DNA of 64,000 bases from Flexithrix dorotheae DSM 6795 (GTDB taxonomy: Bacteria; Bacteroidota; Bacteroidia; Cytophagales; Flammeovirgaceae). The notes beneath the pieces are model-generated. The model made no database searches, was not told the DNA's origin, and saw nothing but the letters and a program-made list of their open reading frames with translations. Positions within the stretch are counted from its first letter, which is position 1, and every line of letters begins with the position of its first letter. Both the position numbers and the translations under genes were made by a program. Of the stretch, positions 39,575-42,077 are shown in pieces. The stretch covers positions 1 through 64,000 of the forward strand of contig NZ_KB903465.1 of assembly GCF_000379765.1 (NCBI RefSeq), in the 5' to 3' direction.

Positions 39575-39615
39575 AAAAAAACTCCCAATCAAAATTTTTG
39601 GTGGGGAGTTTTTTT
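39575..39615. terminator. Bidirectional terminator
   Basis: A7CTCCC (39575-39586) pairs with GGGAGT7 (39604-39615). It lies between the copper protein gene and the convergent GldM-like gene. Confidence 0.75.
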
Positions 39616-39626
39616 GTTTTGAATTA

Positions 39627-40463
39627 TTATTCTAATTCTTTCATCAATTCTAAAATTGCCTTTTGCTCGATCATAAGAATTTGAACTTCAATTTGGCTCA
39701 AAACAGATAAACCAGCTACAACTGACCTACCTTCAAAATTTAGATGAACAAAGTCTTTTTTATTATAGCTAGGATCATTTTTAAAAATGGCATTTTCATT
39801 ACCATCTAAGGTGAATTTTTCCAGTTTAGCTGAAGGAAACATTTTATTTAATTCCTCTAAATACTTTTCGATCATAAATTGAAGAATATAGCCCTTTCCA
39901 TCCTTCATCCCTTTTTCTCCAATCATAAAATATGTTTGTCTTTGGATATTATTCTCATTCATTATGCTACCATCTTCCTTAAGTCCTCCTGCATCAAATA
40001 TCAATTCTTCTCTAACAGTATTCACGTAACCCAAAGTACTTTCAGTAAGGGTCTTTATATTTCTAAATTTCTCGAAGAAGGCGCTATTATTTTCCTCTGC
40101 ATTTTCCTCTAAACTTTTATACAATTGTACATTTGATACTTCTAGATTTGTTGAAATCGAACGGTTATTAATATCATTTATAATAAAATTATCCGAAAAA
40201 TCATAAGGTTTCATACTGAAAACAATTGGGCCGGCAATAGCCAAAAGAAAAGGCATAAATAAAAACAGCATCCCAAATGTAAATCCTTTATTTCTCTCCT
40301 TATACACATAAATACCCACAAATAGCAAATAAAGTGTACAGAATAAAAGTGTACCCATTACAATCATTTCCCCACTACCCGGCCATCTGAAAAATTTAAA
40401 GAGCAGGCCTATGCCCAACATATTACTTACCAAAATGGCAAAAATAAAAGCAACAACTCTCAT
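39627..40463 (-). CDS. Membrane protein with GldL-like helices and a GldM-like periplasmic domain
   Basis: 278 residues. Three N-terminal helices (about 3-22, 34-54, 61-83); the first loop FKFFRWPGSGEM resembles the F-K-x-x-x-x-P-G-A loop of GldL. The rest resembles the first periplasmic domain of GldM: VNTVREELIFDAGG, QRQTYFMIGEKGMKDGKG and NFEGRSVVAGLSVLSQIEVQ, with a C-terminal amphipathic helix. GldL and GldM form the proton-driven motor of gliding and type IX secretion. This protein is much shorter than GldM (about 500 residues) and TM2 lacks the motor glutamate. It is not in a gldKLMN operon. Assignment rests on recalled motifs. Confidence 0.6.
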   Translation of the reverse strand: MRVVAFIFAILVSNMLGIGLLFKFFRWPGSGEMIVMGTLLFCTLYLLFVGIYVYKERNKGFTFGMLFLFMPFLLAIAGPIVFSMKPYDFSDNFIINDINNRSISTNLEVSNVQLYKSLEENAEENNSAFFEKFRNIKTLTESTLGYVNTVREELIFDAGGLKEDGSIMNENNIQRQTYFMIGEKGMKDGKGYILQFMIEKYLEELNKMFPSAKLEKFTLDGNENAIFKNDPSYNKKDFVHLNFEGRSVVAGLSVLSQIEVQILMIEQKAILELMKELE

Positions 40464-41438: not shown

Positions 41439-42077
41439 CTACATACTCAATTCCGTATAATAATAGATTTCCAAAAACTTTTGTGGGGAATCATTATCTT
41501 TTTTCTCTTTGTCCTGCTGAAGTTCCTTAATCACCCCGCCAAACCGCATGGTCTTTTCGGGAAATTTAAATGAGGATCTGTCATGTGCAATAAAAAACTC
41601 CTCATCGGTGGCCTTGTCCCTAAGTTTGTAAATATTGTACTGATCCATTATCGGCACCATGATAAAGGACATTGACTTTCCAGTGCTGATCGGCACCATC
41701 ACAAAACCAGCAAAATCAGTTTTAGATTCAACAAATTCCGGAATACCAGTAATCACTGCATTTGAACCGGTTAAGGCTTTTTCCTTAGCCTCGGAAGGCA
41801 CGAAATGCTGAGGAATATATTTTTCAAGTGATGATTTTAATTGATCAGAGAGCCTGGCGTAAACTTCTTGTCTTGCCTTTTCCTCTAAATTAATGATAGA
41901 CATTTCCAGATATAAAATCATCTTTTGCCTGTCACCCAATACTCCGGCTACTTTGGCCAGTTCGGCAGCGGAAATATTTCCATCATTAGCTTTGGTAAAA
42001 ATATTATAAAACCTTCCTCCATTATCCAATGCTAATAAAGCATTGCGGCTGGTTTTATAAGGCATAATCTTTCTCAT
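41439..42077 (-). CDS. Hypothetical cytosolic protein
   Basis: 212 residues, no signal peptide or membrane helix. Start is the ATG at 42077 or, four codons on, at 42065. The N-terminal third is helical with LDNGGRFYNIFTKANDGNIS, and the C-terminal part looks mixed alpha/beta (FAGFVMVPISTGKSMSFIMV). I do not recognise a family. Same strand as the TPR gene after it and the nucleoside hydrolase before it. Confidence 0.55.
   Translation of the reverse strand: MRKIMPYKTSRNALLALDNGGRFYNIFTKANDGNISAAELAKVAGVLGDRQKMILYLEMSIINLEEKARQEVYARLSDQLKSSLEKYIPQHFVPSEAKEKALTGSNAVITGIPEFVESKTDFAGFVMVPISTGKSMSFIMVPIMDQYNIYKLRDKATDEEFFIAHDRSSFKFPEKTMRFGGVIKELQQDKEKKDNDSPQKFLEIYYYTELSM

Follow-up and report, generated by a model that had tools for sequence, protein, structure and literature searches.

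The window analysed here, the whole stretch of 64,000 nucleotides (64 kb) of Flexithrix dorotheae DSM 6795, was found to contain on its minus strand an open reading frame (ORF), P0001, which starts with ATG and encodes a protein of 278 amino acids (Table 1). The ORF is a real coding sequence. With the 23 other genes of the window as reference, codon usage in its own frame scored 0.236, within the range of its neighbours, compared with -0.28 to -0.69 in the remaining five frames, and a chance ORF was thus ruled out by gene-like codon usage in that frame alone. The G+C content of the gene is 31%, against 34–43% in the 23 other genes. The inverted repeat between P0001 and the convergent gene was not flagged in the scan; a similar repeat is present in the sibling genome G012. 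The upstream TPR protein has hydrophobic stretches at its N terminus (by eye) and is retained in G012 (91% over residues 29–246), where it borders the variable slot described below. Further upstream on the same strand, an ORF of 212 amino acids (41439–42077) has no Pfam family above cut-off and is kept in G012 (84%).

Table 1. Coordinates of P0001, its predicted parts and its surroundings in the window.
Feature	Position	Strand	Evidence or remark
P0001 CDS, single-chain GldL/GldM-like protein	39627..40463	-	ORF, PF12081, codon usage
Putative GldL-type TM hairpin, residues 1-56 (model helices 2-24 and 31-55)	40296..40463	-	
Hairpin loop FKFFRWPGSGEM, residues 22-33	40365..40400	-	8/12 identities with own GldL FKIMHWPGAGEM
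Phe41 codon, position of GldL TM2 glutamate	40341..40343	-	
Predicted third TM helix, residues 59-83, aligned to GldM TM helix	40215..40289	-	
Predicted GldM D1 periplasmic domain, residues 85-278, no D2-D4 after it	39630..40211	-	
Inverted repeat containing runs of A and of T, located between convergent genes	39575..39616	.	candidate terminator, by eye
TPR protein, upstream same-strand neighbour of P0001	40562..41302	-	

Assignment of residues 85–278 to the first periplasmic domain (D1) of GldM, which had been proposed in the first-pass annotation, is firmly supported by sequence comparison and by a predicted structure. Pfam PF12081 (GldM_1st) matched residues 103–275 with 79.4 bits (cut-off 25, E = 4.6e-22), the solved GldM 7saz was matched by sequence at E = 3.5e-8, and the D1 core motif KDFxxLNFE is preserved. 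An AlphaFold2 model built from a 38-row alignment had a mean pLDDT of 81.7, with ten-residue blocks at 90–97 from residue 131 onward and poor values at residues 25–28 and 79–92. The structure search that the annotation had suggested for this part came out in favour of GldM, rows 1–18 of the Foldseek result for the model all being GldM/PorM chains. VIA-align matched the model to 7sax chain B with a Z of 21.2 (2.2 Å rmsd, 179 residues), well above the level of about 13 below which Z may mean little in helical bundles; the best unrelated fold gave a Z of 7.7. The 79.4-bit profile match together with this fold score ruled out a chance match to D1. P0001 was also rejected as a true GldM, since its gene lies outside gldKLMN, domains D2–D4 are absent and the NCBIfam equivalog model TIGR03517 missed its cut-off (67.6/180 bits, only residues 104–276). 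The chain ends after D1, and no Pfam match to D2, D3 or D4 was found in it, whereas the organism's own GldM has all four domains.

The third predicted TM helix of P0001 aligns with the TM helix of GldM (KERNKGFTFGMLFL against KETPRQKMIGMMYL). One alignment sets Lys59 and Phe67 at the positions of the conserved TM arginine, which we take to be R9, and tyrosine of GldM. Tyrosine Y17 of this helix is named in PMC9127263. As Lys59 is positive near the GldM arginine, packing of TM3 against GldL could still occur.

Residues 1–56 appear to form a GldL-type hairpin, with a sequence match that is weak and above background. The Pfam model GldL_N gave 14.0 bits (E 0.06, 25 residues), below its cut-off of 24. 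In Smith–Waterman comparisons residues 1–60 scored 83 against the organism's own GldL and 68 against its own PadR-linked protein of 199 amino acids, neither score being reached by any of 500 shuffles; the score with a hairpin-like protein of 206 amino acids on contig C1 was weak and was reached by 26 of 500. An HMM of GldL hairpins placed P0001 (15.1 bits, E 0.0035 in 3,906 ORFs) below the GldLs and also below non-GldL hairpin proteins, which scored up to 57.8 bits; the next ORFs ranked lower than P0001 (E of at least 0.18, at most 9.6 bits). For a second model, of residues 1–85, the top five structural rows were GldL or PorL, with GldL rows included in the alignment behind it. The structure search that had been proposed for the helices by themselves yielded nothing significant (best E 1.4).

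The glutamate of TM2 was found in all 65 distinct GldL segments, which had been selected without demanding it (eight lack Ala or Ser after it), and in P0001 its place is taken by Phe41; the annotation was therefore right that the motor glutamate is missing. The cytoplasmic C-terminal domain of GldL is also absent, TM2 being followed by a short linker and then TM3. P0001 was rejected as a true GldL on the loss of these two features and on the GldL_N score. Hairpins of FKxxHWPG type without the glutamate occur in non-GldL proteins, many of which adjoin PadR genes, and five of the seven scanned (L136, L221, L230, L233 and L257) passed the GldL_N cut-off, which L223 and L232 missed. The hairpin is thus not motor-specific, and the GldL-like helices of the annotation stood as to hairpin type, without being specific to GldL. 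Since such hairpins occur in non-motor proteins, the likeness is no proof of descent from GldL. In a tree of 65 columns the P0001 hairpin was placed on the non-GldL side of a branch with a support of 93 (unstarred); the rows nearest to it by path are GldLs, and placement on the GldL side was not rejected (p-AU 0.42). Two of the non-GldL proteins that scored above the cut-off, L136:1604–2203 (PadR-linked) and L257:1507–2145 (not PadR-linked), illustrate how misleading it would be to annotate a protein as GldL on no more than that domain.

The genome comprises 9.5 Mb in 101 contigs. P0001 is located on contig C36, and gldK, gldL, gldM and gldN are consecutive on contig C1 (Pfam identified GldL and GldM; the other two were assigned by eye). 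The suggested survey for a true operon thus located it, and P0001 does lie outside the gliding operon, as annotated. A GldL_N match of full strength turned up just once in the genome (100.1 bits; next 30.1). Further GldM-type genes are a lone full-length GldM on contig C25 and a D1-only protein of 215 amino acids on contig C6, lipoprotein-like by eye. Beside the C25 gene (L009:4142–5737), a second GldM paralogue of full length, none of gldL, gldK and gldN was seen; the sibling has a close copy of this gene.

Two pieces of a single G012 contig aligned with the window (81 and 85% DNA identity), ending at positions 39620 and 40564. Between them G012 has an ORF of 425 amino acids with a PRiA4_ORF3 domain (L138:5058–6335), which is unrelated to P0001. 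The slot is thus variable, and with an unrelated gene in it in the sibling the P0001 gene looks accessory, the G012 assembly being 84% complete so that a copy elsewhere in that genome is possible.

No orthologue of P0001 was found among the sampled genomes, and the protein is known from one genome only (the family, order and phylum samples overlap, and their counts are not additive). A search with the whole protein matched 16 of 18 family genomes, with P0001's own as the only full-length match, and 249 of 291 order genomes. Among the matches listed for the order, the own gene excluded, stop-free ones begin at residue 48 or later and are mostly full-length GldMs, while those beginning before residue 48 cross stop codons. 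Residues 1–106 matched one of 395 phylum genomes at 1e-5, namely the own genome. At 5e-4 they matched 26 genomes of the order out of 390, the own genome included; the nine loci read from these matches encode four GldLs and five other hairpin proteins. A search of genome contigs with P0001 as single query gave 58 pattern stretches and no relatives. A strict DNA pattern for FKxxxWPG had 12 sites in 10 of the 291 order genomes, compared with four sites for the reversed control pattern, and two of the 12 are the GldL and P0001 genes of the own genome; absence elsewhere carries little weight. No single-chain GldL/GldM protein was found in the literature surveyed by title and abstract opening, with most subscription journals outside the scope.

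PF12081 is present in 273 of the 291 order genomes. Twenty of these were chosen by eye, mainly ones with several matches, and 17 stretches were taken, in which a seed HMM identified 20 D1 ORFs at 14 of 17 loci (none in L097, L098 and L101). Inspection by eye showed a lipoprotein-type cysteine in 15 of the 20 and an N-terminal hydrophobic helix in the other five; by hydropathy and eye none has a GldL-type hairpin. The short, D1-only forms appear at several places among the GldMs in a first D1 tree (55 rows, L099 omitted as a near copy). A single origin for them was unsupported, as this tree needs six changes, at least four of them forced by starred branches. A second tree (53 rows; four long rows taken out and two fusion rows added) needs five, at least two forced. 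D1-only truncation of GldM is recurrent in several lineages of the order. The P0001 D1 falls in the second tree in a nine-row group of own-family GldMs and short forms (92/86, unstarred), at a point where long branches meet; its own branch measures 1.57 in the first tree and 1.69 in the second.

Other arrangements were also seen. At L099:3039–4910 and L100:1996–4110 a GldM D1 stands ahead of a VWA/YfbK protein in one chain (by Pfam in L100 only). In the stretch L090:2947–11953 (G113, contig C60) there are five lipoprotein-like genes of the D1-only kind, set in cassettes that are repeated and share partner ORFs, and four ORFs of the cluster have no Pfam match at 0.01. At L085:4367–5251 and in its neighbourhood, tandem one-helix proteins (by eye) adjoin a D1 protein, and one has a GldM_2nd match just short of the cut-off (22.7/24.4 bits). 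Contig C9 of G016 (L016, L026) carries two GldM genes, with frames of 544 and 559 amino acids, approximately 3 kb apart.

Four of the hairpin proteins found with the N-terminal search (L221, L230, L232 and L233) possess two GldL-type hairpins, a fifth TM helix and a periplasmic domain. All four loci contain a PadR gene, two genes upstream in the case of L233; of the 27 loci found with L221 in 257 genomes, 26 contain one. In L233 (426 amino acids) one chain exceeds two Pfam cut-offs, GldM_1st at 43.8 (cut-off 25) and GldL_N at 29.4 (cut-off 24), and its C-terminal part was the top scorer for all three D1 profiles used, in a set of 1,008 sequences that included decoys. On the strength of these profile matches, the hybrid architecture of GldL-type hairpin and GldM D1 is one that recurs beyond P0001. 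The annotation had also suggested a survey for the same fusion, which was successful as regards this architecture and returned no orthologue of P0001 itself. BLASTP of P0001 against L233 matched the hairpins (E 5e-6 and 2e-5) and not D1.

Homology to D1 is suggested for the C-terminal domains of L221, L230 and L232 as well. A profile of all four C-terminal parts matched D1 with a probability of 93.3, and of 15.9 when L233 was left out, with 0.7 as the top value for 40 column-shuffled versions of the latter profile; L230 and L221 alone gave 0.7 and 0.8. Singly the three proteins were at about decoy level, with the exception of L230, to which two of the three profiles gave second place among the 1,008. 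Pfam GldM_1st gave 14.4 bits for L230, below cut-off, and no match for L221 and L232. In the second D1 tree L233 and L230 lie outside the GldMs, on long branches and with weak support (45/68). A clade of P0001, L233 and L230 received no support but was not rejected either (p-AU 0.262); one of P0001 and L233 alone had a p-AU of 0.156. With two PadR proteins as queries, tblastn gave no match at 1e-3 in the 64-kb window around P0001 and none for the hairpin proteins L137, L222, L223, L224 and L257. The HAAS N-terminal domain is absent from P0001, the hairpin of which begins at residue 2; the PadR-linked proteins are called HAAS-like because of the PadR neighbour and a DHxCC-type motif rather than any profile match.

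The reading favoured here, with somewhat better than even confidence, is that P0001 is a non-motor, single-chain inner-membrane protein, in which a GldL-type hairpin and a GldM-type TM helix carry D1, and that it serves as a static adaptor or sensor. Most likely it would keep D1, as a static binding module, near the inner membrane, which agrees with the lipoprotein-like relatives that have D1 only and with the PadR-linked L233; with no PadR match in the window and no HAAS-like domain in P0001, a sensor role is argued by analogy with relatives. In the available excerpts of PMC8986121, GldL TM1 and the GldM TM helix run in-to-out and GldL TM2 out-to-in, so that a single chain could run through hairpin and TM3 into a D1 on the outer side. 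By analogy, the N terminus of P0001 would be inside, the FKFFRWPGSGEM loop outside and D1 periplasmic.

The same excerpts describe GldL E49 of F. johnsoniae as strictly conserved and required for secretion (PMC8986121). With the proton carrier missing, P0001 would be expected to deliver no torque, and one hairpin per D1 would misfit a 5:2 wheel and axle. In PorM a D2–D3 piece oligomerises and D4 binds PorN, according to excerpts of PMC5790014. For a protein with neither D2–D4 nor the glutamate, a rotor role is very unlikely on this analogy. The annotation had offered a regulator, a non-rotating relative or a new transducer; its observation was confirmed and its interpretation is partly supported, the non-rotating relative being the most economical reading. 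As the D1 groups with own-family GldMs (unstarred), P0001 likely originated as a gldM duplicate that lost D2–D4 and gained a hairpin. The source of the hairpin could be gldL, the gene immediately upstream of gldM, or else one of the non-GldL hairpin proteins. Against the adaptor or sensor reading, the long D1 branch and the low G+C content of 31% are also what one would expect of a gene that is decaying or foreign.

Second after a static, D1-presenting adaptor or sensor ranks a modulator of the organism's own type IX motor, which we regard as possible though unlikely: its GldM-like helix and D1 would pair with GldM, or its hairpin would enter the GldL ring, and the Glu-less subunit would stall or tune the motor. 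The place of its D1 in the tree beside own-family GldMs, the positive residue of TM3 at the GldM arginine position and a genome with a complete gldKLMN plus another GldM that stands alone and has no GldL to itself are consistent with this, as is the packing of GldM D1s through helix alpha1 in a crystal described in the excerpts of PMC5790014. However, the same excerpts report no two-hybrid self-interaction of isolated PorM D1, the gene and the operon are on different contigs, and both D1 and hairpin sequences of P0001 are strongly diverged. We consider it less likely again, and rather improbable, that P0001 is a decaying or functionless gldM duplicate in the variable slot of one genome. Its restriction to a single sampled genome, the other gene in the sibling's slot and the long D1 branch would be expected of such a remnant, whereas the intact frame of 278 codons with gene-like codon usage, the preserved KDFxxLNFE motif with a confidently predicted D1 fold, and the recurrence of D1-only truncation in several lineages argue against it. 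That the hairpin likeness is mere hydrophobic convergence, P0001 being simply a three-helix membrane protein with a D1, which would be compatible with the other readings, is hardly probable: the sub-threshold GldL_N score and the non-significant helix structure match would agree with it, but the own-GldL score reached by no shuffle, the HMM rank just below true hairpin families and above the next ORFs, and the GldL/PorL rows at the top of the structure search, though helped by GldL rows in the alignment, do not.

A single chain of hairpin and D1 with no proton carrier suggests roles for both blocks outside the motor, and shows that the GldL_N and GldM_1st labels by themselves do not prove a motor. 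Recurrence of the hybrid architecture also bears on the origin of the type IX secretion system (T9SS) motor. Excerpts of PMC11237479, on envelope stress, propose that HAAS-PadR pairs, in which HAAS is joined to multi-TM sensors, offer an alternative to two-component systems. It is conceivable, though quite doubtful, that single chains of hairpin and D1 make up a class of their own, related to the T9SS motor but non-motor, with a role in envelope sensing; the class would then comprise L233 with its PadR-linked kin, and P0001 as a stand-alone form. As the D1s of L233 and L230 lie outside GldM (weakly, and on long branches), the two-subunit motor may even descend from such a one-chain membrane sensor.

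Compared with known systems, P0001 has in common with GldM/PorM, the axle of the T9SS motor (PF12081 with PF21601, PF21602 and PF12080), the sequence and predicted fold of D1 and the TM helix immediately before it; unlike them, it is without D2, D3 and D4, has an additional N-terminal hairpin and is not encoded in gldKLMN. With GldL/PorL, the motor ring (PF22827), it shares the two-helix hairpin, the FKxxxWPGxGEM loop and the probable topology, but it has phenylalanine for the TM2 glutamate and no cytoplasmic C-terminal domain, and GldM parts are fused on. The D1-only GldM offshoots (L010, L085–L096, L099 and L100) resemble P0001 in having D1, no D4 and a position outside gldKLMN, and differ in being mostly lipoprotein-like by eye, or in having one N-terminal helix, and in the absence of a hairpin. 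The PadR-linked hairpin proteins (L136, L221, L230, L232, L233 and shorter kin) have a cytoplasmic HAAS-like N-terminal domain, two hairpins and PadR in the locus, in contrast to the one hairpin and the 64 kb without a PadR match in the case of P0001. Like P0001 they carry GldL-type hairpins without the glutamate (by eye), and L233 also shares with it a GldM_1st domain after the final TM helix.
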